25,302 nt of DNA from a virus, in the IMG/VR virus record IMGVR_UViG_3300021197_000932, positions 1 to 25,302 of that record, one strand, 5' to 3'. This document shows, piece by piece, positions 1 through 20,390 of the stretch. Numbering within the stretch: position 1 is the first letter of the stretch; each line of letters opens with the position of its first letter. The position numbers were made by a program, and so were the translations under genes. The notes beneath the pieces are model-generated. The model was not told the origin of the DNA. It saw only the letters and a program-made list of their open reading frames with translations, and searched no databases.

Positions 1-2311
1 AACTCTTACCACTGCCTGGTCCACCTGCCAGGAACACTGCTTTAAAAATGTGCGGATCGTTTACGCCTTCTTCTAGGTCAACATCTTCGTCCATAGCCTT
101 TTCAATTGCTGCATAACTCTTTGGACCATCTGGATGCTTTGGATTTACACTTACAATTTCACCATTCATTAGTTCACTGATGTTGCTTGCTTTACCAATA
201 ACATCCAGCAGTTGGTGTAGTTCATCATTCTCATCATAGTCTATTTCATAGTTAGGATTGCCGCGTACTTCCGCACGTTCACCTGTGCGAGTATTTCTAA
301 TGTGTAGCACAAGCAGATCATCATCATTTTCTAGTCTCAGTTTATATGCTTCATTTATGTTATCAGTAAACCAACCTTTTACTTTGTCTAGTATACTCTT
401 ATCTTTTTTAGGAACAGGTTTGTACTTGGGCTTTTTTTCTTTTTTCTCATATCCAGGAAAGTTTATTTGACTGCCTAAACTGTCATCTTCATTTTTCTTT
501 TTACCCGCGCAGTGCGCACGTTGTGAAAAGCCTTTTGGATTACTGCAGTTAATACTACTCTTGTATTTCGCACTCCAGCCTTCTACAGGAAACTCTCTGT
601 TAGGAGTTTTAAAATCTTTTTTACGCATAACAGTTTTAGCAATTAAGTCTAGTTCATTGTTGTCTTTGTCATACTGTAGTGCAAATGGCAAGTTAATATC
701 TGTCTGCAAGTCTTTCATTACTGCTTCTTGTCCAGGACCCATTTGTGCAATAGGCTTTGCCCAACGCTTAAACTCTTGCTTAAACAACCTAGTAAGTTCA
801 GCCATGGTAATTGGTTTACGGTTTCTTTCATCATTTACACGATCTAAGAAATGGCGAGTAAACTCTACATCAATACCTACTTTGGCAAACAGTTTATCTG
901 CAAACGTTTCTAGTTGCTGCAGGTCTACAGTTGTAATAGTTTCGTCATAGCGCAGTTTACCTGGTGTACTCTTTTTAATCTTTAGTGGACGATGTGGAAA
1001 CAGCGACATTACAAGTCCACTAGCAAGTGGCACGCCGATACTTCCACGTTCATTATAGATGTCTTTGTAATATGTCTTTTCAAACTTGTTTACTAGATCA
1101 TATAGTTCATAAGCAGGCAAGTTAATACGGAAAACATTTAAGTCTGCGCCTGTGTTAATAGCAACAAGCCATCTATGATGCCCATCCATGATGTAATCAT
1201 CACTACTAGCAATTACTGCTTTTCTGTTTGGTCCTTGTTCAATGTTCTTCATCAACTGCTTTATAATGCCTTGGTCGCTGAACTCTTTTTGCATTGCTTT
1301 TAGGTCACGAGCAGGAATAGTTTCTTTGGTAAATTTAGCACCATTTGATTTTAAGTATTCTATAAACTCCGCATAGTCGTCGCTTTTAACCTGAGGCATA
1401 TCTTTACGCTGTACACCCAATGTATCTTTTGGATCTGGCTTTTCTATTTTTAGTTCATCTATTTGCACACTAAATGCAGAGCTAGGAATAATGCCTTTGT
1501 ATGCCAGTGTGCTATCATCGTCCATTACATTTGAATCATCTTCCAAGTTGTCCTGGTCTAGTTGACTAGCATTTATACTTAACACAACAATATCGTCAAT
1601 GTATTCGTCTGGCACTTCTTCGTTTGCTTCTGCATGACTGACAGCAACTTCTGGATTTTTAGCAAGGTATACATAACCCGGCTTACTATCTTCCCACTGT
1701 GTTTGTGCACCACTACCACCCAGTCCGTTTTTCATAATACTATTAAGAAACGGTTTGTATGTTGCATGGTACAACATTGGAGTTACCGCATTTTCAAACA
1801 AACTTGGATCTTTGCCAGCCCATTTGCGCATTATTACACCAGCAACAGCATTTGCTTGATTCTCATGCTTGCTTCCATCACTACCATCAATGTCTTGATT
1901 CTGTTCATCTTGTGCTAGATGCACAAGTTCATGGGCAAGTGTTCTCATAATGTCTGCCTCATGACGATCACTTGAACTTACAGTTAGTGTTTTTGTTTTG
2001 GTGTTGTAGTATCCAAATGTGCCATCTAATTTCTTTTTAGTAATAACAATCCTAGGTATACTTTTTAGTTCTAAACTTTGTATGCAAAATTTAACAAACG
2101 GTTTAAGAGATGATGCATCCACGCTTTCGGTGATACCTAAGTTAAACAGTGTGTTTGGATCACTGTTCTTAGTTGCTTTCTTATTGTGAAGTTTAGGCTT
2201 ACCAGATCCAAGACCCAATTTTTTGACATTACTATACTCACTACCTATAGGAGCATCCTTGGTAGCGTTTTGTTTAGTAATTTTGCCTACACCTAACTCA
2301 CCTAGTTTCAT
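1..2311 (-). CDS. Multidomain polyvalent-type phage protein (zincin, ART-like, ParB-like, RelE-like nuclease, P-loop); 3' end outside window
   Basis: An unbroken minus-strand frame of 770 codons runs from an ATG at 2311 off the window edge, so the C-terminus is missing. Regions in order: a zinc-protease motif HELVH (127-131) with a possible third ligand E150; an ADP-ribosyltransferase/Tpt1-like stretch (about 179-252) with MLYHAT, a GL turn, PGYVYLA and an acidic VLSINASQLD end; a ParB/sulfiredoxin-like motif DGHHRW (376-381); a probable barnase/EndoU/colicin/RelE-type nuclease region (about 483-570) with RHFLDRVNDERN and KTVMRKKDF; a short Cys motif NCSNPKGFSQRAHC (588-601); a charged linker; and a Walker A GGPGSGKS (763-770) at the edge. 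This mixture is typical of the polyvalent proteins described in phages and conjugative elements, some of which are thought to enter the cell with the DNA. The P-loop suggests a kinase domain beyond the edge. Domain calls are by eye; the zincin and P-loop are the firmest. Start and upstream stop overlap by one base. Confidence 0.85.
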   Translation of the reverse strand, partial: MKLGELGVGKITKQNATKDAPIGSEYSNVKKLGLGSGKPKLHNKKATKNSDPNTLFNLGITESVDASSLKPFVKFCIQSLELKSIPRIVITKKKLDGTFGYYNTKTKTLTVSSSDRHEADIMRTLAHELVHLAQDEQNQDIDGSDGSKHENQANAVAGVIMRKWAGKDPSLFENAVTPMLYHATYKPFLNSIMKNGLGGSGAQTQWEDSKPGYVYLAKNPEVAVSHAEANEEVPDEYIDDIVVLSINASQLDQDNLEDDSNVMDDDSTLAYKGIIPSSAFSVQIDELKIEKPDPKDTLGVQRKDMPQVKSDDYAEFIEYLKSNGAKFTKETIPARDLKAMQKEFSDQGIIKQLMKNIEQGPNRKAVIASSDDYIMDGHHRWLVAINTGADLNVFRINLPAYELYDLVNKFEKTYYKDIYNERGSIGVPLASGLVMSLFPHRPLKIKKSTPGKLRYDETITTVDLQQLETFADKLFAKVGIDVEFTRHFLDRVNDERNRKPITMAELTRLFKQEFKRWAKPIAQMGPGQEAVMKDLQTDINLPFALQYDKDNNELDLIAKTVMRKKDFKTPNREFPVEGWSAKYKSSINCSNPKGFSQRAHCAGKKKNEDDSLGSQINFPGYEKKEKKPKYKPVPKKDKSILDKVKGWFTDNINEAYKLRLENDDDLLVLHIRNTRTGERAEVRGNPNYEIDYDENDELHQLLDVIGKASNISELMNGEIVSVNPKHPDGPKSYAAIEKAMDEDVDLEEGVNDPHIFKAVFLAGGPGSGKS

Positions 2312-3996
2312 TAGGCTTTGCCTTTACCAAATAGTTTCTTGCGTTTCTTAAAATCACCTTTGACTTTATTCACTACGTCAGTAAATACGTTTTCTTCTAG
2401 TTCTAGTCCAATGTTTTTTCTACAGCCGTCAATCATTTGCATAACTTCAAAATGTTCTGGACTGCCTGGCTTACACTGCATTTCTTTATCATACAATTTC
2501 ATTAGCAACATACGCATTGGCTTATGATCATCTGCCATTGGATCACCACAGTGTTCACTAATGTCTTTGTCTATACCCTTACTTGCTGTGCCACCACGCT
2601 TGCGCTGTTGTGCTAGTTCACTGTATGCTTCTTGTATACCATCATTGTATACGTTTAGCAAACTCATGTAGCGATCAAAGTTATCCTGTATTCCTTTAGC
2701 ATGTTTTACTTTAGCAAGATTTGAAACATTTGCTGACATTTCACTTATCTCTTTCAGCGCACTGCTAATACTCATTGTACCAATACCGCGAATAGCAATA
2801 ACACTGTTCATTGGATCTTCTTTGTTAAAGTCTGTAATTTCTTCTTTAACTCCCTGTCCTCCAAATGCTTTGCCTTGCCATTCAGCACTCTCTTTTTCAG
2901 TTTTGATAGGACCACCTTTTGCCCAGGTGTGGCAACTTCTTGCACTGTGGCACTTGAAGTGATGCATCCAACAGTAGCCTAGTTCGCCGTCATCATCAAA
3001 TGTATCACCAGGCAAACAATCCTTCATACGCTCACTGATATCAAATGCTACACAGTTACCGCAGTTACTGGCCAGTGCTGCTTCTTCTGAGGTGTTCCAA
3101 TACTCGCCAATGTCTTTCCAGTAATCACCTGGCACATCAACATTTAGTGGACCATAGTTAAACTGCTTTATAGTTCTATCTCTGTTCTCTGTGTTGACTG
3201 CTAGGTCTTGTGTAGCAAGTGGACAAGCAAGTTCTGCTTCGTTTACAGGTAAACTATGTCCGCCTTCCATGATTGCTTGGTATAATGATTTTTTTCTCTG
3301 TTTCATGTTAAGGTTCTCTACAAGTGTGTCAACTCTAATACAGGCTTCTAAGATGTAACAATCATCTGCACCTAATTCAATAAGTTGATCTAATATTTGG
3401 TCTGCACGTTCTAGTTGTTCGTTAATCTTTTGTGCCATAGTGTTGTGCGTCTTTGGATCATACTGTCCAAATAAATCTGTAATCATAGCCTTTTGTGTTT
3501 CACTGTCTGCTTGTGCAAAGTTTGCTCTAAACTCACTAGCACTACGCATAGGCTTGCCCAGCACATTAAACTGCAATGTAGGCACGGTGATAATGTATCC
3601 ATGTTTATCAAAGCCCTGCATGTCTTTGCTTGCTGGCTGATAGTAACTTGGTTGTCCATCTTTACGAGGTTTGAATGAGAAGCGAGGATCTTCAGCCATG
3701 TCTTTGTCACTGACTGCAAACAACGCGATTGTGTTTTGGGGATCAAAGTTGTCTGTAATTTCAGTTGCTTGGTATGGATTTTTTACTTGAACGACACGGC
3801 TTGGATCGACACCTGTTAGTGCCATCATTGCTCGCTTCTCATCAAATGTGAATGGGGATTTTGGTGGATCTACCTTATTACTGGTAGCAATGTATACACT
3901 ATTCTTGCCAAAACGCTTTACAAGAGCATCGTAAACACTCTTGTGGCCTTTATGGAACGGATGAAAACGTCCCGGATAGATTACGACTGTATCCAT
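2311..3996 (-). CDS. HxGH nucleotidyltransferase fused to a Cys-rich domain
   Basis: A protein of 561 residues. The N-terminus has GRFHPFHKGH (9-18), the HxGH nucleotide-binding signature of the cytidylyltransferase/NMN adenylyltransferase fold, and PMRSASEFR (149-157) fits the later phosphate-binding motif. The substrate cannot be read from the sequence; NMN, a phosphosugar or a pantetheine precursor are all possible. About residues 310-360 is a Cys/His-rich module (C312, C315, C327, C342, C349, C355, with CWMHHFKCHSARSC) that probably binds zinc or an iron-sulfur cluster; similar modules occur in large phage proteins. The C-terminal 170 residues are helical and end in a basic tail. It is transcribed from a TATAAATA box 25 bases upstream, and its stop overlaps the start of the polyvalent protein gene by one base, so the two are probably co-expressed late. 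The domain fusion is longer than a free-standing nucleotidyltransferase (about 170-200 residues). Confidence 0.85.
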   Translation of the reverse strand: MDTVVIYPGRFHPFHKGHKSVYDALVKRFGKNSVYIATSNKVDPPKSPFTFDEKRAMMALTGVDPSRVVQVKNPYQATEITDNFDPQNTIALFAVSDKDMAEDPRFSFKPRKDGQPSYYQPASKDMQGFDKHGYIITVPTLQFNVLGKPMRSASEFRANFAQADSETQKAMITDLFGQYDPKTHNTMAQKINEQLERADQILDQLIELGADDCYILEACIRVDTLVENLNMKQRKKSLYQAIMEGGHSLPVNEAELACPLATQDLAVNTENRDRTIKQFNYGPLNVDVPGDYWKDIGEYWNTSEEAALASNCGNCVAFDISERMKDCLPGDTFDDDGELGYCWMHHFKCHSARSCHTWAKGGPIKTEKESAEWQGKAFGGQGVKEEITDFNKEDPMNSVIAIRGIGTMSISSALKEISEMSANVSNLAKVKHAKGIQDNFDRYMSLLNVYNDGIQEAYSELAQQRKRGGTASKGIDKDISEHCGDPMADDHKPMRMLLMKLYDKEMQCKPGSPEHFEVMQMIDGCRKNIGLELEENVFTDVVNKVKGDFKKRKKLFGKGKA

Positions 3997-4021: not shown

Positions 4022-4029
4022 TATTTATA
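4022..4029 (-). promoter_or_regulatory. T4-type late promoter box TATAAATA
   Basis: An exact TATAAATA on the minus strand, matching the T4 gp55-dependent late consensus, lies 25 bases before the ATG at 3996. An AGGGA ribosome site lies between them. The position predicts a 5' leader of about 20 bases for the nucleotidyltransferase/polyvalent protein pair. Confidence 0.7.
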
Positions 4030-7876: not shown

Positions 7877-8563
7877 TTATTCTATTTCCCTTAATTGAAA
7901 TTCAACAATTTTGTTTATGTGAGATCCAAGTTTAAATTGTACAAGTTGTAGCATCTTTTCATCGCTGATGTAGCCAATGCTTTCTCCACACCATGTTCCC
8001 CATCTACGAACAGTATCGCTATTGTTTACGCGGATAGTATCTGGGTATTGTGCTGCCCAGTTTGCCCAGTCTGTAAACTGTTCCAATTCCATTCTTTCAC
8101 CAAGTATCTGAAAGCGATACTTGCCATAGGGTAGCCGTTTTTTACGATAGCGTACATTTCGTTCCTGAATTGTACCAGGAAAATAACATACACTTCCTAG
8201 TTCCACCATCCTTTCAATTGGTGTGTCTTGTTTCGCTCCAAGTCTGTTTACATATGCAATAAGTTTTTCTATAGTAATGACATCATTGCAATAGTAGTTT
8301 AGAGTTCTATATTCTACCCTGACTCTATCTCCCTGTTTTTTAGCATATTTTCTAACTGTGCCAACAAAACTAGTGTGATGTTCTGTGTCAATTTTGAAAC
8401 CCCAGGAGTCAATAGTAGGCACACGCATTAGTTCAGGATATCTGTATTGGTATAGAATAACTTCTAATCTATAAAGATACTTACTGTAAAACAGTCTGTC
8501 GTTATGCTGTAACGGGAGGTTGTACTGATTGCTCAGAGCCTCCAGCTTCTGTAATGGTTCCAT
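7877..8563 (-). CDS. Conserved phage protein of unknown function
   Basis: 228 residues rich in Tyr, Arg and Trp, with no Walker, zinc or membrane motif. YRLEVILYQYRYPELMRVP (about 31-49) is the most distinctive stretch. The start lies inside the 3' end of the Clp gene, a 62-base overlap in another frame, with a weak AGG site upstream. No better start is visible inside. Its place directly after clp and dnaJ suggests co-expression with them, so it might be a substrate or adaptor, which is speculation. Confidence 0.65.
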   Translation of the reverse strand: MEPLQKLEALSNQYNLPLQHNDRLFYSKYLYRLEVILYQYRYPELMRVPTIDSWGFKIDTEHHTSFVGTVRKYAKKQGDRVRVEYRTLNYYCNDVITIEKLIAYVNRLGAKQDTPIERMVELGSVCYFPGTIQERNVRYRKKRLPYGKYRFQILGERMELEQFTDWANWAAQYPDTIRVNNSDTVRRWGTWCGESIGYISDEKMLQLVQFKLGSHINKIVEFQLREIE

Positions 8564-10778
8564 CTGTGTACCTAAATTTTATAACGAGCTTGTTATCTAC
8601 ATTTCTTATTTTAATTTTACAGCCATTCTTGTTATTGTCAACTGTTATTTGTTTAGCAATTGGCATACGCAACATAGTATCAATAGCACGAGACATTGGC
8701 CTTGCACCCATCTTATCGTCATATCCTTTTGCAAGAATAATGTCAATGCTTGATTCGTCAATGTGTAGAGCAAAGCCTTTTTCTTTAAGTTGCGTTTGTA
8801 GTTCCTTAATAAACTTCATACAAACTTTACGCTTTGCAACTTCAGGCAGTGGACCAAACTTACAAACTGCATCAATGCGGTTGCGGAACTCTGGAGCAAA
8901 GAACTTCTTGTATGCATCATCAACTGCTTCTGTGTGATGCTCTTGTTCGTTAAATCCAATTACACGTTTTTCTGATTCTGCAGCACCCAAATTAGTTGTG
9001 AGGATAACATAACTGTTACGAGCATCTACACGCTTACCGTTTGATCCTGTAACAAAACCTTCATCCATCAACTGTAGCAGCACATTACTAACATCTGGAT
9101 GCGCTTTTTCAATCTCATCAAATAGTATAACACTGTGCGGGTTACGTTCAATATCACGAATTAGCAAGCCGCCACTAAGATTGCTGTCTTCAAATCCAAC
9201 ATATCCAGGAGGTGCACCAATAAAACGTGCTACAGTATGACGCTCTTGATATTCACTCATATCATAGCGTAGTAGTTTCATTGCATTTGCTTCGGCAAGT
9301 TGTTTAGCAAGTTCTGTTTTACCTGTGCCTGTTGGACCAGTAAACACAAACACACCCAATGTCTTATCACGTTTGTTAAGTCCTGCTTTAGCAACCCAGA
9401 CCTTTTCAAGTACACCATCTACTGCACTGTCTTGTCCAAATACCTGTGACTTAATGCTTGCTTCAATGTCCTGAGGTTTGACTGTGTCTTCATTGTCCTC
9501 TAGTTGTGCAATAGGAATCTTTGCAAACTTTGAAATTTCTTCTAGGATGTTTTGACGGTCAATAACTGCGTCCTTTATACCAAGCCTACGTTGCTTTGCA
9601 CTAGCACTGTCAATCATATCAAATGCTTTATCTGGTAGTCTCTTGTCTGTGAGATAACGCACACTCAAATCAACTGCATCTTCAACTGCTTGCTTAGTAA
9701 TCTTGCAACTATGAAACTTCTCATAGTATTTCTTACTGCTCATAAGAATCTTTTTAGCAAGTGCGGGTGTAGGTTCTGTTACAGTAACGTGATAGAAGCG
9801 ACGCATCAGCGCACGATCTTTTTCAAAACTGCTATTATATTCTTCCCAGGTTGTGCTTGCTATTACTTTTAGTTTGCCTCTGCCCAAGTAAGGCTTGAGC
9901 ATGTTAGCAAAGTCTGTGCCACCGTTGCCTCCCGAACCTGCACCTTTAAGTGTGTGTGCTTCGTCAATAAACAGGATACACTTCTTCTTTTGTATAAGTG
10001 CGCCCAGCACTTCTTTTACACGTTCTTCAAACTGTCCACGATACTGTGTGCCTGCAAGCATATTGGCAACATCCAAGTTATACACCGTGTGATCTTGTAA
10101 ATATTCAGGTACCGCTTTATTAACAATTTTTACAGCAAGTCCTTCTGCAACTGCTGTTTTACCAACACCGGGATCACCTACCATAAGAACATTGCTTTTA
10201 TTGCGGCGTGCAAATGTTTGTGTTATATCATCAATGATGTCGTCTCTGCCTATGACAGGATCCAGTGTTTTCTCACTTGCTTGAGTGTTTAAATTTTCAC
10301 AATACTCATTGATAATACCATCTAGGTATTGCTCTTGTTGTTTATTCAACCCCAGTTGCCTACTGTTGTGCTTCACATGACGCATAAACTCTTCTTTTAC
10401 AACGTTATATTTCATCAAGAAGTAACTACTGTGACTATTGTTTTCACTCATAATACTAACAAAGATATCCAGTAGTGTTACTTTTTCTCTGCCACTAAAC
10501 AACACACTGGTAAGCGCACGATTAAAAACACGCTCCAGTGCTTGCGTTTTTACTTGGCTAATTTTATGAGAACTCTGAAATGCATCAGCAACATGACTTT
10601 CTAAATCAAGTTTTAATTCATCAAGTTGTACTCCAAACTCAATTATGAGCTGGGCAAAGTCTTTGTTTTGAAACATAGCAAGTAACATATGTTCAGTGCT
10701 AATATACATATGACCATACTTACCTGCAATCTTGCTTGCTGTGTCTAATGCTTTGTCTACTTCTCTAGCGGTTTTCAT
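8502..10778 (-). CDS. clpA: ClpA-like AAA+ unfoldase
   Basis: 758 residues, the length of ClpA, with two AAA+ modules and no ClpB-type coiled-coil arm between them. The Clp N-domain covers about 1-140. D1 has Walker A GDPGVGKT (201-208), pore loop AGTQYRGQFEERV and Walker B CILFIDEAH (267-275). D2 has GPTGTGKT (481-488), pore loop GAPPGYVGF, Walker B VILFDEIEKAH (550-560), and arginine-finger region FRNRID. Residues 607-609 are IGF, at the place where ClpA has its IGL loop that docks on ClpP, so the protein is likely able to pair with host ClpP; no phage ClpP is in the window. It unfolds protein substrates in the cytoplasm using ATP. Its ATG overlaps the dnaJ stop by four bases (ATGA), so the two are translationally coupled. 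Confidence 0.92.
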   Translation of the reverse strand: MKTAREVDKALDTASKIAGKYGHMYISTEHMLLAMFQNKDFAQLIIEFGVQLDELKLDLESHVADAFQSSHKISQVKTQALERVFNRALTSVLFSGREKVTLLDIFVSIMSENNSHSSYFLMKYNVVKEEFMRHVKHNSRQLGLNKQQEQYLDGIINEYCENLNTQASEKTLDPVIGRDDIIDDITQTFARRNKSNVLMVGDPGVGKTAVAEGLAVKIVNKAVPEYLQDHTVYNLDVANMLAGTQYRGQFEERVKEVLGALIQKKKCILFIDEAHTLKGAGSGGNGGTDFANMLKPYLGRGKLKVIASTTWEEYNSSFEKDRALMRRFYHVTVTEPTPALAKKILMSSKKYYEKFHSCKITKQAVEDAVDLSVRYLTDKRLPDKAFDMIDSASAKQRRLGIKDAVIDRQNILEEISKFAKIPIAQLEDNEDTVKPQDIEASIKSQVFGQDSAVDGVLEKVWVAKAGLNKRDKTLGVFVFTGPTGTGKTELAKQLAEANAMKLLRYDMSEYQERHTVARFIGAPPGYVGFEDSNLSGGLLIRDIERNPHSVILFDEIEKAHPDVSNVLLQLMDEGFVTGSNGKRVDARNSYVILTTNLGAAESEKRVIGFNEQEHHTEAVDDAYKKFFAPEFRNRIDAVCKFGPLPEVAKRKVCMKFIKELQTQLKEKGFALHIDESSIDIILAKGYDDKMGARPMSRAIDTMLRMPIAKQITVDNNKNGCKIKIRNVDNKLVIKFRYTDGTITEAGGSEQSVQPPVTA

Positions 10779-11602
10779 TCGTCATCCCGTAATTTTTTGC
10801 ATATATTTTTTTGTTGTTGTGTTAAGTTTTCTGGTATTTTTACCAGTACTTGTACAAGTAAATCGCCTCTTATGCCCTGCTTGTTATACATTCCATGTTT
10901 GGGTATTTTAAGAGTGGTACCATACTGTGTGCCCGAAGGTACATTAAGATTAATTGTTTTATTTTCAATAGTGTTAATTTGCACAACTGTACCTATTATA
11001 GCATCCCATGCGCCAAGTGTCAAGTGCATTTTTAAGTTATCACCTTCTCTAGCAAACACTTCATGTTCTACTATGTTTATTGTAACTGTTAGATCACCTG
11101 GAGGCAAATGAGCATGTGTTGTATCTCCTAGTGCTCCATATTTTATTTTAGTGCCATTATTAACACCCTGGGGGATTTTAAGATTAACTAAGTGTCTGCT
11201 TCCGTTAGTGTGTCTTATGCTCACTGTTTTTTCCTGGTACGCCAGTACTTCTTCCAGTGTACAGTCTATGCTTATGGCTAAATTTTTGTTTACTTTTGCA
11301 CGATGATATTCACGTTTACTAGGATGGAAACCTGCGCCACCAAACACTGTAAACATATCATCAAACACACTGTCCATGTTACCAGTGTTTATTTTAATGT
11401 TTTGTCTGCGACTGTTACGAACGTCAAACTCTGCACGTTTATGCGGATCTTTGAGAACTTCATACGCTTCAGCAACAGCATGAAACGTGTCAACATCACC
11501 GCCACTGTCAGGGTGATGCTGTTTTGCTTTGGTGCGATACGCTGATTGTATATCTTTAGGACTACATGTAGGTTCCAGTCCTAGTACATCATAATAGTTC
11601 AT
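10775..11602 (-). CDS. DnaJ/CbpA-like J-domain co-chaperone
   Basis: 275 residues. The J domain (about 1-62) has the catalytic HPD (30-32) that stimulates DnaK ATPase, and YEVLKDPHKRAEFD. A short Gly/Phe-type linker holds FDDMFTVFGGAGF, then two beta-sandwich client-binding domains (about 105-265; NLAISIDCTLEEVLAYQEKT, VNLKIPQGVNNGTKIKY). The CxxCxGxG zinc fingers of DnaJ proper are absent, so it is a class B protein like CbpA. It would recruit host DnaK to chosen proteins. The start has no ribosome site; a promoter-like TATAATTA lies five bases before the ATG, suggesting a leaderless message. It is followed by the ClpA-like gene with a four-base overlap. Confidence 0.9.
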   Translation of the reverse strand: MNYYDVLGLEPTCSPKDIQSAYRTKAKQHHPDSGGDVDTFHAVAEAYEVLKDPHKRAEFDVRNSRRQNIKINTGNMDSVFDDMFTVFGGAGFHPSKREYHRAKVNKNLAISIDCTLEEVLAYQEKTVSIRHTNGSRHLVNLKIPQGVNNGTKIKYGALGDTTHAHLPPGDLTVTINIVEHEVFAREGDNLKMHLTLGAWDAIIGTVVQINTIENKTINLNVPSGTQYGTTLKIPKHGMYNKQGIRGDLLVQVLVKIPENLTQQQKNICKKLRDDE

Positions 11603-12699: not shown

Positions 12700-13480
12700 T
12701 TTTATTTCTCCTCCAAACCATTCTTTCTACAGTGTCGTCTCTGTCAACAACTGCTTGTAATGTAGTATTTAACTTTTCTCTACTGCAAATCCAGTTAACA
12801 ACGCCATGCTGATTTCCAAACACATTGTCAGCGTTCTTTTTGTGGTTGTTTGTGTTATATGTTGCTACTGGCATCCAGTACATATAGTAGTTAAAACTGT
12901 TTAAGTAGTCATATATCTTACTATATGTTGTAGGATCCTGCATTTCAATTAGCAAGTCTGGCTTAAATCCTTGAAGGGTTGCTGGCATACCTTCTAGTAC
13001 TTCAATCTCCATGCCTTCTACGTCTATCTTCACAAAATCAACTTGAGGTAAACCTAGCATATCTAATCTAGCAGTTTTTACATCCGAGCCTGTAACAAGT
13101 GCAGTTTTTCCATAATCAAACTGTGTGCTTGTTTCTCCAAATTGATTACCCAAAGCCAGTCTTGTTGTAGTAACATTGTCACAACCACAGCCGCTACAAT
13201 TTTTTACTAGTACATCAAAGTTATCTAGATCAGGTTCAATTGCGATTACACGTTGTACATATGGACTAACGCCTACTGTGTGTACGCCTATGTTTGCACC
13301 AACGTCAACAAACCAACTAGTTGGGGTAACTAAACTTTTTATTGCATCTATTTCAATGTGACAATATTCACCATACAATTCTAATGCACGACCTATAGTA
13401 GGATCATCTTGTATATACAGCATATTACCGTAACGAGTGTTAGTCTGTACTAGTGTCTTTGTTGTCGTCTGATGACGCAT
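12668..13480 (-). CDS. FkbM family methyltransferase
   Basis: 270 residues. S-adenosylmethionine motif I is FVDVGANIGVHTVGV (57-71), followed by the acidic VIAIEPD (78-84) that binds the ribose; DFVKIDVEGMEIEVLEGM (about 148-165) is the FkbM signature. These enzymes O-methylate sugars or polyketides, and phage copies are usually near glycosyltransferases, so the likely target is a glycan. Cytoplasmic. The first ATG (13480) overlaps the outer-spanin gene by 41 bases and its ribosome site (GAGG) is 12 bases away; the true start could lie slightly downstream near residue 12. The tail also overlaps the next gene. Confidence 0.85.
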   Translation of the reverse strand: MRHQTTTKTLVQTNTRYGNMLYIQDDPTIGRALELYGEYCHIEIDAIKSLVTPTSWFVDVGANIGVHTVGVSPYVQRVIAIEPDLDNFDVLVKNCSGCGCDNVTTTRLALGNQFGETSTQFDYGKTALVTGSDVKTARLDMLGLPQVDFVKIDVEGMEIEVLEGMPATLQGFKPDLLIEMQDPTTYSKIYDYLNSFNYYMYWMPVATYNTNNHKKNADNVFGNQHGVVNWICSREKLNTTLQAVVDRDDTVERMVWRRNKNVGDDLKHGE

Positions 13481-13862
13481 CTGGCTTCATTGCCTCTTCG
13501 TAATAGATAATAATTTCTTTTTGTTGATTAATAAAGCGGCGTAGTTCTGCAACGTTGAGTGCTAAATTTTCGTAATCTTTAACGCTAAGTGCAACAAAAG
13601 CCAAGTCGCCATTCTCTGCCTTAAAGTCCTCAATAAACTTTTGTAGGTTTGCCTCGTTGACTACATATACTCTGGTGTCAACTAAATCAATTGGCTTTGG
13701 TCGTGTCGCTATCGGTACTGTTGTTTTCACCGTCTGCGTCACTACTTGGATCTCCGGCTCCGGTTGTAGGCGACTGCAACCACTTAGGAAGAGGACGGCT
13801 ACTGCCATCAGTGCTACCGGTCTCGCCCATGATTTCACGCCATAGTTTTGCTGTTGCGCCAT
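13440..13862 (-). CDS. Probable outer-membrane spanin lipoprotein (Rz1-like)
   Basis: 140 residues. A signal peptide ends in a lipobox LSGC (C29; FLSGCSRL), so the mature protein would be lipidated at C29 and sorted to the outer membrane. A proline-containing stretch (QPEPE, ATRPKPI) follows, then a helical part. Its start lies inside the inner-spanin gene in another frame, with AAGGA nine bases upstream; the two share 176 bases. This nested arrangement is the classical Rz/Rz1 layout. It is longer than lambda Rz1 (60 residues). Role: joins the inner spanin to fuse inner and outer membranes at the last step of lysis. A plain lipoprotein of other function is possible, but the context argues for a spanin. 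Confidence 0.75.
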   Translation of the reverse strand: MAQQQNYGVKSWARPVALMAVAVLFLSGCSRLQPEPEIQVVTQTVKTTVPIATRPKPIDLVDTRVYVVNEANLQKFIEDFKAENGDLAFVALSVKDYENLALNVAELRRFINQQKEIIIYYEEAMKPDASSDDNKDTSTD

Positions 13863-14187
13863 TCATACGTCCTTCTAGATTTGCTGCATCTCGTAATGCA
13901 TCTCCAAGCAAGTCTAACTGACGAAGTTTTTTGCGTAGGTTATCTCCATACGCTTCTGCTTCCTGTAACTGTGCTTGTAAGTTTTGTTGTAGTTTTGCGT
14001 TATTCGCTGCTTCTGCTCTTAGTGTGTCTATGCTTGCTTCACTGGTTTCAATCGCAACTTCTAGTTTAGCATTGTTGTCTCGTAACGTTGCTATCTCTGC
14101 TTGCGTTGTGTCGTAATAATACTTGGCACCATATCCAGCGATGCCAAGAACGCCTATAAGCGCAATAAGTGCATAGACTTTAAACAT
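13687..14187 (-). CDS. Probable inner-membrane spanin (Rz-like)
   Basis: 166 residues. One N-terminal membrane anchor (about 4-22, VYALIALIGVLGIAGYGAK), then a long alanine/leucine/glutamate coiled coil (about 28-115, with TLRDNNAKLEVAIETSEA) reaching into the periplasm, and a low-complexity Ser/Asp/Gly tail. This is the plan of Rz-type i-spanins. The Rz1-like lipoprotein gene starts within its 3' half. Its ATG directly follows the stop of the small membrane gene (TAGATG), so it is coupled. It lies between that gene and the outer spanin in a lysis region that includes the endolysin. Assigned by architecture and position; no direct sequence match claimed. Confidence 0.72.
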   Translation of the reverse strand: MFKVYALIALIGVLGIAGYGAKYYYDTTQAEIATLRDNNAKLEVAIETSEASIDTLRAEAANNAKLQQNLQAQLQEAEAYGDNLRKKLRQLDLLGDALRDAANLEGRMNGATAKLWREIMGETGSTDGSSRPLPKWLQSPTTGAGDPSSDADGENNSTDSDTTKAN

Positions 14188-17876: not shown

Positions 17877-18929
17877 TTACTTAACCAAGTCTGCTTTGTA
17901 GATACTCTTTAGTCCTAGTGCTTCTTTGTTAAACTTGACTAGATTCTTAAGTGCATCTTCAGTAACAAATGTCATAAGTGTGTCACGCATTTGATCGCCA
18001 TCATCGCCAATGAACCACTCATACTTGCCGTTCTTTGCTTCAATAGCAGCCATTGAGTCTGCATCATTCTTCATAGCATACATTGCTGAAATCATACGCT
18101 TGCGTAGTTTTTCATTGCCTTTGTTAACCCAGATAGCCTTTTGTAGTCCATCGCGGAAACTTTTAACAAGTTTGTATGCATCATAAAACTCACCACTTGG
18201 TGCTACACCCCAACGTGCTTCAAAGATTTGTTCAACTTGATAACCTGCAGGATAGTTAGTGTCATCAACATGATTGCCTGTTGTTGGATCCAACAGTCCA
18301 TGATGGAACCAAAGTTCTGCATTAGCGTCTGGCTCAACATGCTTTTGATATGTTGCTGGATTCTCACGAGTGCCGTTTAGATCACCACGCTTAAATGCAA
18401 GACGTCTTTCACTACCACTCATACCTTTTACCCATACTACATTTTCTTTAAAACATGCAATGTATTCATCCACACTCTTGTCTGGACCACACAACATAAG
18501 TGTCATAGCAAATGCTTCTGGCACCATGCCTGAACCTGCTGGGAAACGCGGCTTACTCATGTCATCACCAATACGCTTGCCCGCAATGATGTTTAGGTTC
18601 ATAAGTCCTACACTGTCATATTCAGCATAGTTGTAGTCAACTTGCTCTTGCAAGAAACTTACACCATTACCACCGTGTGTAACAACAATTGTGTTTTCGT
18701 CAAAGCGTAGGTCATTATGCCAAGCATTGATGCCAGGAATATCTCTTGCACCAGGAATCAAACGCAGTGTAATCTTTTCGCCAAGATGTTTTTCAAGTTC
18801 TTTTTTTACAATGTCTGCCCATACTGTTGTGCCCTGTCCAGGCTTTTGTGGAACAACCATTGTTACTTCTGCCATTGCTGAAGTAAACATAAACAAGGAT
18901 GCTACGATCCCCAATACTAGATTTTTCAT
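17877..18929 (-). CDS. TctC-like periplasmic solute-binding protein
   Basis: 350 residues. A classical signal peptide (MKNLVLGIVASLFMFTSAMA, cleavage after residue 20, no lipobox) sends it to the periplasm. The mature start VTMVVPQKPGQGTTVWADI has the loop of TctC/BUG proteins that follows strand one. TctC binds a carboxylate (citrate, glutamate or other acids) and hands it to the TctA permease; the ligand here cannot be read. It is somewhat longer than the typical 300 residues and distant in sequence. GGAG lies before the ATG, and the gene is nine bases after the TctA stop, so the two are one unit. Host-derived transport gene in a phage. Confidence 0.82.
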   Translation of the reverse strand: MKNLVLGIVASLFMFTSAMAEVTMVVPQKPGQGTTVWADIVKKELEKHLGEKITLRLIPGARDIPGINAWHNDLRFDENTIVVTHGGNGVSFLQEQVDYNYAEYDSVGLMNLNIIAGKRIGDDMSKPRFPAGSGMVPEAFAMTLMLCGPDKSVDEYIACFKENVVWVKGMSGSERRLAFKRGDLNGTRENPATYQKHVEPDANAELWFHHGLLDPTTGNHVDDTNYPAGYQVEQIFEARWGVAPSGEFYDAYKLVKSFRDGLQKAIWVNKGNEKLRKRMISAMYAMKNDADSMAAIEAKNGKYEWFIGDDGDQMRDTLMTFVTEDALKNLVKFNKEALGLKSIYKADLVK

Positions 18930-18938
18930 TTATATCTC

Positions 18939-20390
18939 CTATACAAAATCTATTCTTGCTTTATTAAAAAATATTCCCCATATTGCAGCACTAACTGCTA
19001 GTGTGAGGAATATTAGTGGAAGTGGTTCAAGTAGCAAGTTTCTCCAACCATAACCAAATGTGTCAAACTGAACCCAACTGGCTTCTAGTCTGGCACTTAA
19101 AATATAACCGATTAGAAAACTAACACGGCTAAACTTAGTAAACTTTAGTACCATGCCTGCACAGCAACATATTGCCAGCATGGCATAATCATTAAACATA
19201 CCTGTGTACTGTGTACTTGCCCAAATTAAACTAGCAAGTATGGGCCAGAAGTAATAGCGGAAAGGTATGTTTGTTATATAAACTGCATACTTAATGAATC
19301 CATAACTGATAGGCAGTATTATCAACAAACTCCAAAGGTAACTACTAAGCAGTGTATCAAAAAACTTAGTGTCAGCAAGCACACTTGGTGTGCCTAGTTC
19401 AAGACCAACATACATCAACAGTCCCATCACAATAACTTCAAATGGTGCACCGGGTATACCAAACAACACTGTGGGAACATATGAGGTTGCTTTTTGTGCA
19501 TTGTTAGCACCTTCACATCCAATGACACCACGCACATGTCCTTGTCCAACATTTTCACCATCACGTTTTCCTAGTGCAACTGTTTGACTGTATGCAAACC
19601 AATCTGCAATAGCGCCACCAATGCCTGGAATCAATCCAATGAATCCGCCTATAAAGCCTCCGCGCAGTCCATCCCATCTATAACGCCAAGTGTCTTTTAC
19701 ACCTTGTATCAACTGTGACACAATAACACCATTTGTTAGTTTGATCTTTTCTGCTTTCATCCAGTATGCGCTCAACAGTTCTGGAAATGCCAGTACACCT
19801 GCCATGATAGGAATAATCTGCACACCATCGCCTAGGTATTCCCATCCCATTGTCCAGCGTGGACTTGCAGTGTTCGGATCCATACCAATGTGTCCTACAG
19901 CAACGCCTAGTATTAATGCAAGTGCACCACGGAACCAATACTTACTGCTAACAAATATAACACAGGTCATAGCAAATATTAAGAAACTAAACATTTCTAC
20001 AGTACCAAAGTACAGCACAATATTAGTATACCAAGGTAAAAACAAAAACACCAACAGTCCCCAGATTAAACCATTTATCCAACTTGTGCTTATAGCAGCA
20101 CTAAGGGCACGGGCGGCTTCACCACGTCTGGACATCGGAAAACCATCTACCATGGTTGCAGCCGCGCCGCCAGCTCCTGGGATGTTCATAACAACACCGC
20201 AGAAACTATCCCCTATGCTACTGGTTACAACAACTGCAGTGGTAAACACAACAAGCATATAGGGATCCTCAAAGTAACCTACAAAACTGTAGATTGCAAT
20301 AAGTCCTGTGGTAGCGCCTGCTACTGGTATTAGTCCTACAAAGAAGCCATAAAAGACTCCTAGCAGTAATACAATGATATATGTATCCAT
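18939..20390 (-). CDS. TctA-family permease of the tripartite tricarboxylate transporter
   Basis: 483 residues with about 11-12 hydrophobic segments, the length of TctA (about 500). Two repeats carry the Gly/Pro motifs of the family: the N-terminal half has VMNIPGAGGAAATMVDGFPM, the second GLIPGIGGAIADWFAYSQ and then VLFGIPGAPFEVIVMG. It is the large inner-membrane subunit that moves carboxylates with a cation gradient. The partner TctC gene follows; the small TctB subunit (about 150 residues, four spans) is absent from the window. The ATG at 20390 has no ribosome site in front, and no other in-frame start lies before the upstream stop, which is unusual for a large membrane protein. It is probably taken from a bacterial host. 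Confidence 0.88.
   Translation of the reverse strand: MDTYIIVLLLGVFYGFFVGLIPVAGATTGLIAIYSFVGYFEDPYMLVVFTTAVVVTSSIGDSFCGVVMNIPGAGGAAATMVDGFPMSRRGEAARALSAAISTSWINGLIWGLLVFLFLPWYTNIVLYFGTVEMFSFLIFAMTCVIFVSSKYWFRGALALILGVAVGHIGMDPNTASPRWTMGWEYLGDGVQIIPIMAGVLAFPELLSAYWMKAEKIKLTNGVIVSQLIQGVKDTWRYRWDGLRGGFIGGFIGLIPGIGGAIADWFAYSQTVALGKRDGENVGQGHVRGVIGCEGANNAQKATSYVPTVLFGIPGAPFEVIVMGLLMYVGLELGTPSVLADTKFFDTLLSSYLWSLLIILPISYGFIKYAVYITNIPFRYYFWPILASLIWASTQYTGMFNDYAMLAICCCAGMVLKFTKFSRVSFLIGYILSARLEASWVQFDTFGYGWRNLLLEPLPLIFLTLAVSAAIWGIFFNKARIDFV

Follow-up and report, generated by a model that had tools for sequence, protein, structure and literature searches.

Prohead-protease-type sites at the joints of a multi-enzyme chain point to a probable virion-cargo precursor in a marine T4-like phage

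One end of a 25.3-kb IMG/VR fragment (IMGVR_UViG_3300021197_000932, positions 1 to 25,302; the whole stretch is called the window here) carries an open reading frame (ORF) in which a zincin, an ADP-ribosyltransferase (ART), a ParB-like region, a RelE-like fold and a P-loop share one chain. The question raised by this locus is in what form such a chain works. The original prediction was a virion-packed multi-effector. Packing into the virion is the reading favoured here, judging from the targeting N-termini of relatives, the virion proteomes of cyanophages and the sites at the joints; however, the working form is probably not one multi-domain effector but several proteins cut from a precursor. 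We consider it fairly probable that the ORF encodes a virion-cargo precursor polyprotein of a marine T4-like phage, from which the prohead protease, cutting at the joints, releases the individual enzymes that are injected. The observed basis consists of the modules, their separate-gene relatives, many of which have N-termini like a capsid-targeting sequence, and the sites at the joints.

That the window protein is packaged, cut and injected, and what the kit does, we infer as follows. The chain would be expressed late and packed into the core of the prohead, where a gp21-type prohead protease would cleave behind hydrophobic-x-Glu (PhixE) at the module joints. Cleavage would free zincin, KptA-like ART, ParB/Srx-like, RelE-like and P-loop-kinase proteins, which would be ejected into the host together with the DNA. 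In the first minutes after infection, such a kit would most likely repair or rewire the metabolism of RNA and nucleotides and also counter host defences.

All the motifs that had been listed from the letters do lie in a single frame of at least 770 residues, which has HELVH (residues 127-131) and, downstream of it, HENQAN (149-154), then YHAT (181-184), DGHHRW (376-381), RHFLDR (486-491), KTVMRK (559-564) and GGPGSGKS (763-770). Pfam M78, IMG/VR relatives and phrog matches show that these patterns did not arise by chance. The zincin, called correctly from its motif, combines the HEXXH at HELVH with a downstream Glu in HENQ (149-152) and matches Pfam M78; its relatives that stand alone carry N-termini of the MKVKELLTE/ type (a slash follows the Glu of a site throughout). 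The ParB reading is likewise borne out, by DGHHRW and by matches to phrog_8071 (ParB-like, E = 4e-5) and phrog_2859 (E = 2e-26). This region also showed a weak profile match to the free serine kinase SerK (E = 0.2-0.5), and a PDB sequence search yielded weak matches.

The ART and nuclease readings had been pattern-based, and structure prediction gave the two regions separate folds. A Pfam search with the ART module at E up to 10 gave nothing. The AlphaFold model of this module (111 residues; predicted local distance difference test, pLDDT, 78; built on 11 sequences) matched KptA/Tpt1 RNA 2'-phosphotransferases in Foldseek (E = 5e-5, probability 1.00) and by superposition (VIA; Z = 11.7, root-mean-square deviation (rmsd) 2.2-2.3, 87 aligned residues, 22-29% identity), which upholds the ART reading strongly at the level of the fold. 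The superposition covers the C-terminal, NAD-binding lobe (about residues 89-181 of the KptA chain), whereas the N-terminal lobe has no counterpart in the roughly 110 residues, which are bounded by other modules. The module at residues 457-575, with at least 454 relatives confirmed in IMG/VR, was modelled at pLDDT 94 on 48 sequences. RelE-superfamily chains were its first nine structural matches (Z = 5.0-6.5, RelE/ParE/HigB best; rmsd 3.1 over 77 aligned residues for the top one). Foldseek alone returned no significant match (best E = 0.35, HigB2), Pfam at E up to 10 gave nothing convincing, and a PDB sequence search was uninformative. The topology resembles that of the RelE/ParE/HigB toxins (BECR fold), although the module differs from them in a Z of only 6.5, an extra N-terminal helix, conserved residues of its own and the lack of a sequence match. 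The models are thus suggestive of a RelE-like fold; the predicted nuclease stands at that level, which is not proof. Both modules fold separately when modelled alone, and each also occurs without the other, in further proteins or as a gene of its own.

The missing 3' part of the gene could be recovered from relatives. The full gene is present in L002 (1029 aa) and L004 (1096 aa), and L003 encodes at least 1223 aa. All three supply the missing C-terminus, a complete P-loop kinase of the AAA_33/zeta/PNK-like type (AAA_33 E = 2e-13, Zeta_toxin E = 5e-12), which confirms the P-loop reading. In L004, a family-B-type phage DNA polymerase lies downstream. Several unrelated enzymatic domains stand in one chain and are reshuffled between relatives: L005-L007 combine ParB with a SpoT-like HD domain, a CCA-adding enzyme and a 5'-nucleotidase, L118 combines RelE-like and ART modules, L215 encodes a zincin-ParB protein, and L021 and L300 also count as polyprotein relatives. 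In the fused protein of L118 (5962-9663), a long stretch of Ala/Asp-rich repeats (KASDxxLIAL...) separates the ART module from a later one.

What the fused modules have in common is that each still begins just behind a motif of the gp21 prohead-protease type. For five module families, a segment of 19 residues at each internal module start was searched for [LIVMF]xE; the second ART rows in L117 and L118 (beyond residue 500), which lie in a repetitive stretch, were left out. The motif was found at 69/79 internal starts, against 13.7±3.2 for random segments of the same proteins, and, after removal of near-duplicates, at 49/57 against 10.2±2.9. Shuffling each segment with its composition preserved is a harder control, because the linkers are Glu-rich; it gave 27.1±3.3 of 57, with 49 not reached in any of 2000 rounds. 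For PhiE, PhixxE, PhixxxE, ExPhi and PhixD/K/Q, used as control patterns, the counts did not rise above those of their shuffles, PhixxE being borderline (p = 0.06). In the kinase module, the residue before GxxDPxIF is Glu in all 80 copies that match this anchor, internal ones included, and P3 is hydrophobic in 53/53 separate and 9/9 internal copies. The window ORF has sites at or near joints after residues 62, 173, 286, 654, 742 and 748; a further one is at residue 5, and others are inside modules (318, 505 and 713), the one at 505 falling within a helix of the modelled RelE-like fold.

These joints bear on the view that the ORF is a classical polyvalent protein, one that enters the host intact or is processed by its own zincin (the proposal for P1 DdrB and others), with gp21 making no use of PhixE. 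Zincin, ART, ParB and BECR/RelE-like domains do form the core of the published polyvalent network, for which release by embedded zincins was proposed (PMC5512222). However, the same joints occur in fused relatives without a recognised zincin (L004, L300, L021, L118 and L297), and the joint motif has the spacing of a prohead-protease site, common to the N-termini of zincin-free separate genes. The loss of a module also tracks the sites: the window reads ITE/S-zincin-LFE/N-ART, whereas L004 and L300, without a zincin, read ISE/D-ART, with GISE/D leading straight into the ART module. We regard the classical polyvalent protein as unlikely.

The same modules are also found as single genes. Melnitz (a Methylophilales phage), HTVC008M (a Pelagibacter phage), and S-SRM01 and B23 (Synechococcus phages), all Kyanoviridae, encode kinase, RelE-like and zincin modules individually. 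The P-loop kinase is a separate gene in Melnitz and HTVC008M; it adjoins a cytidyltransferase in HTVC008M, and in S-SRM01 the zincin comes directly before the cytidyltransferase. Many of these N-termini (MKTFxELQE/G, MKSFKTFLDE/G, MKTFVEFLTE/S, MKKFKSYVAE/L) have the layout of the T4 capsid-targeting sequence, of which residues 4 and 7 target, residues 8 and 10 are required for processing, and gp21 cleaves after L/I-x-E (PMC9026906). The strict targeting pattern, the only one used as evidence, was present in 43/151 distinct N-termini of module-opening proteins against 79/1768 other ORFs on the same contigs. A loose pattern of the targeting half was dropped, as it was present in 713/1768 background ORFs.

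Such neighbours could have been fused through loss of stop codons, PhixE being a relic in a protein that works uncut in the head or the cytoplasm. Melnitz and HTVC008M, with the same modules as separate genes, and P-TIM68 gp111, with an internal MKNFTSFMEA, speak for such a history. However, the internal copies have mostly lost the targeting half (M..F..F) while PhixE stays (10/10 and 9/9 kinase joints in two counts), and its retention points to selection on the site itself. A relic is doubtful, and slightly more so than the classical polyvalent protein.

Evidence from virions comes from two cyanophages. Mass spectrometry of S-CREM2 virions identified 52 proteins (PMC10665884). The targeting pattern was found in 7/218 S-CREM2 ORFs examined, and five of the seven are among the virion proteins (Fisher p = 0.008): an S-adenosylmethionine (SAM) hydrolase, a small ORF, an APH-like kinase, gp136 and a cytidylyltransferase (MKNFSSFLTE/A). 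This virion nucleotidyltransferase and the product of the gene directly upstream of the window ORF belong to one broad class. In S-SCSM1, the NMNAT is a virion protein that starts with MKSFLQFLKE/A and is flanked by other virion proteins. The authors of both papers were undecided whether such proteins are true cargo. Two further S-CREM2 virion proteins were noted in passing. The Cas9-like gp12 (L303 7704-10313) has a stretch RFASFMAE/A near its annotated start, and its true start may be later; the N-terminal region ATGFTGAAAPEGPVAGYDPLM of gp160 (L017 22343-23236) mimics the segment behind the likely cut site of the major capsid protein, ADGFTGAAAPGGPNAGFDPVM.

The third reading is an early or middle multi-enzyme of the cytoplasm, for RNA repair or nucleotide metabolism, that stays outside the virion. 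Some of the genes sit between helicase and primase genes in T4-like relatives, and T4's own RNA-repair enzymes work from the cytoplasm. However, a late-type promoter heads the unit, separate modules have targeting-type N-termini, and genes around the NMNAT-like gene were detected in S-CREM2 and S-SCSM1 virions. We hold a cytoplasmic enzyme to be very improbable. The upstream gene in question (561 residues) has its HxGH nucleotidyltransferase at the N-terminus, and its stop codon overlaps the polyprotein start as TAATG. The late promoter claimed ahead of the operon stood in part: ATAAATA is kept at the promoter place in L002, L003 and L004, whereas TATAAATA occurs in the window at chance (2 found, 2.04 expected). 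Only its conserved place, not its count, was used as evidence.

Several points weigh against a precursor cut in the prohead. The ParB/RelE-like joint of the window ORF reads YDE and the RelE-like/Cys joint PVE, neither with a hydrophobic P3. The N-terminus, MKLGELGVGK, is hydrophobic at positions 3 and 6 only and has no PhixE at the expected place, and of 49 proteins whose first module is the RelE-like one, only 27 have PhixE there. The joint sites could be relics of gene fusion. Neither gp21 nor gp23 was found within the window or on the fragmentary contigs of the closest relatives. The mass-spectrometry data cover separate proteins of relatives, not the window protein or a close relative, and the S-CREM2 authors caution that some virion detections may be contaminants (PMC10665884). 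Of a complete capsid-targeting sequence, the window N-terminus keeps the spacing of the targeting half and lacks the processing site, and it was not accepted as one. In favour of the precursor, large relatives with such polyproteins, G009 (165 kb) and G011 (343 kb), encode the T4-type prohead protease gp21 (S77), gp23 and a T4 portal. A search for Phage_sheath_1 among the relatives was nearly empty, most contigs being fragments.

The proposed precursor resembles several known systems. The T4 internal proteins IPI-III and Alt have an N-terminal targeting peptide of 10-20 aa, a fixed hydrophobic spacing and an L/I-x-E site, as in the separate-gene relatives. Alt is likewise an ART, and gp21 and gp23 are present in the large relatives. 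However, in T4 each internal protein is one gene with a propeptide and the processing site lies in the N-terminal peptide, whereas here several modules share a chain, the sites are at the joints and the window N-terminus lacks one. Polyvalent proteins (Iyer et al. 2017, PMC5512222; P1 DdrB, fusions of the N4-type virion RNA polymerase, vRNAP) share zincin, ART, ParB, BECR/RelE-like, SpoT-like and lysozyme-like domains in shuffled order. Injection was predicted there as well; release was ascribed to embedded zincins, whereas here the joints have sites of the prohead-protease type. The same study did not count the Alt-type ARTs of T4-like phages among genuine polyvalent proteins (PMC5512222). 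Head proteins of phiKZ and SPN3US are cut by gp175 and gp245, respectively, behind the Glu of S/A-x-E or A-x-E (PMC5694885, PMC9026906), but this is mostly propeptide removal, and the cutting apart of a chain of unrelated enzymes was not described in the literature searched. Nor did that literature, which left most subscription papers outside, describe any chain of several enzymes whose joints carry prohead-protease sites, which is not proof of novelty. Within it, capsid-targeting sequences and cyanophages co-occurred in one review only, the cyanophage as a cited title.

Table 1. Features of the polyprotein locus in the window
Feature	Position	Strand	Details
Polyprotein ORF	2..2311	(-)	770 residues, ATG start, 3' end missing at contig end
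Upstream gene, HxGH nucleotidyltransferase (NMNAT/cytidyltransferase-like)	2311..3996	(-)	Pfam CTP_transf_like E 6e-7, phrog_395
T4 late-type promoter TATAAATA	4022..4029	(-)	heads two-gene unit; 33 nt before upstream gene start codon
N-terminal unit (GVGKITKQN...)	2126..2311	(-)	residues 1-62; partial targeting-like start MKLGEL, ends GITE/S
Zincin (HELVH...HENQ)	1793..2125	(-)	residues 63-173; ends LFE/N; Pfam M78 E 1e-4
KptA/Tpt1-like ADP-ribosyltransferase fold	1454..1792	(-)	residues 174-286; ends IDE/L; AlphaFold and structure search
ParB/Srx-like region with DGHHRW	944..1453	(-)	residues 287-456; phrog_8071, phrog_2859
RelE-like fold module (RHFLDR...KTVMRK), suggestive	587..943	(-)	residues 457-575; AlphaFold and structural matches
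Small Cys motif GWSAKYKxSINCSNPKGFSQRAHCAGKKK	494..586	(-)	residues 576-606; recurs in cyanophage proteins
Small module, INE/A at opening, LEE/G at close	68..349	(-)	residues 655-748; also in L021, L297, L300
P-loop kinase start (GVNDPHIFKAVFLAGGPGSGKS)	2..67	(-)	residues 749-770; complete in L002-L004

Two of the units in Table 1, at 494-586 and 2126-2311 (-), are very short and mobile, recurring in the proteins of these phages. One is the SINCSNPKGFSQ Cys motif, which is also within the L005, L007 and L300 proteins; the other is the GVGxITxQN unit, which is N-terminal in the window and C-terminal, as GVGRVVPGINTT, in L005-L007. Elsewhere in the window, a pair of genes at 17877-20390 (-) is unusual in a phage: one encodes a TctA-family membrane subunit of a tripartite tricarboxylate transporter (Pfam E = 3e-84), and the product of its neighbour has a signal-peptide-like start and could be a TctC-like binding protein. 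A ClpA/ClpB-like double AAA+ protein (8502-11602, (-)) adjoins a DnaJ protein; Clp phage homologs are found in jumbo phages. At 13440-14187 (-), an Rz-like spanin (13687-14187) overlaps a lipobox ORF in another frame (13440-13862), which resembles a classical Rz/Rz1 pair.

As to function, the original prediction was the disarming of hosts or rivals. Repair of RNA and nucleotides together with counter-defence fits the enzyme set at least as well. Further modules of the relatives are a CCA-adding enzyme, a SpoT-like HD domain, a nucleotidase and an NMNAT-like enzyme. An injected repair and counter-defence kit would be the most economical reading, because the enzyme set (KptA-like ART, PNK-like kinase, CCA enzyme of the relatives, RelE-like fold and NMNAT-like neighbour) overlaps viral RNA-repair and NAD pathways (PMC9503650, PMC7824862).

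The targeting pattern may offer a sequence rule to tell which phage proteins travel in the head, and it agrees with published, unexplained S-CREM2 virion detections (SAM hydrolase, APH-like kinase, nucleotidyltransferase). The prohead protease becomes a candidate for releasing the parts of multi-domain phage cargo, in place of the embedded zincins that had been proposed. Several of the modules are common among marine viral contigs. We lean, by a modest margin of belief, towards the wider view that marine T4-like phages would carry injected enzymes as true polyproteins, with one targeting segment and many gp21 sites, released as separate proteins inside the prohead, and that shuffling of modules at these sites would exchange one injected kit for RNA/NAD repair and counter-defence for another.
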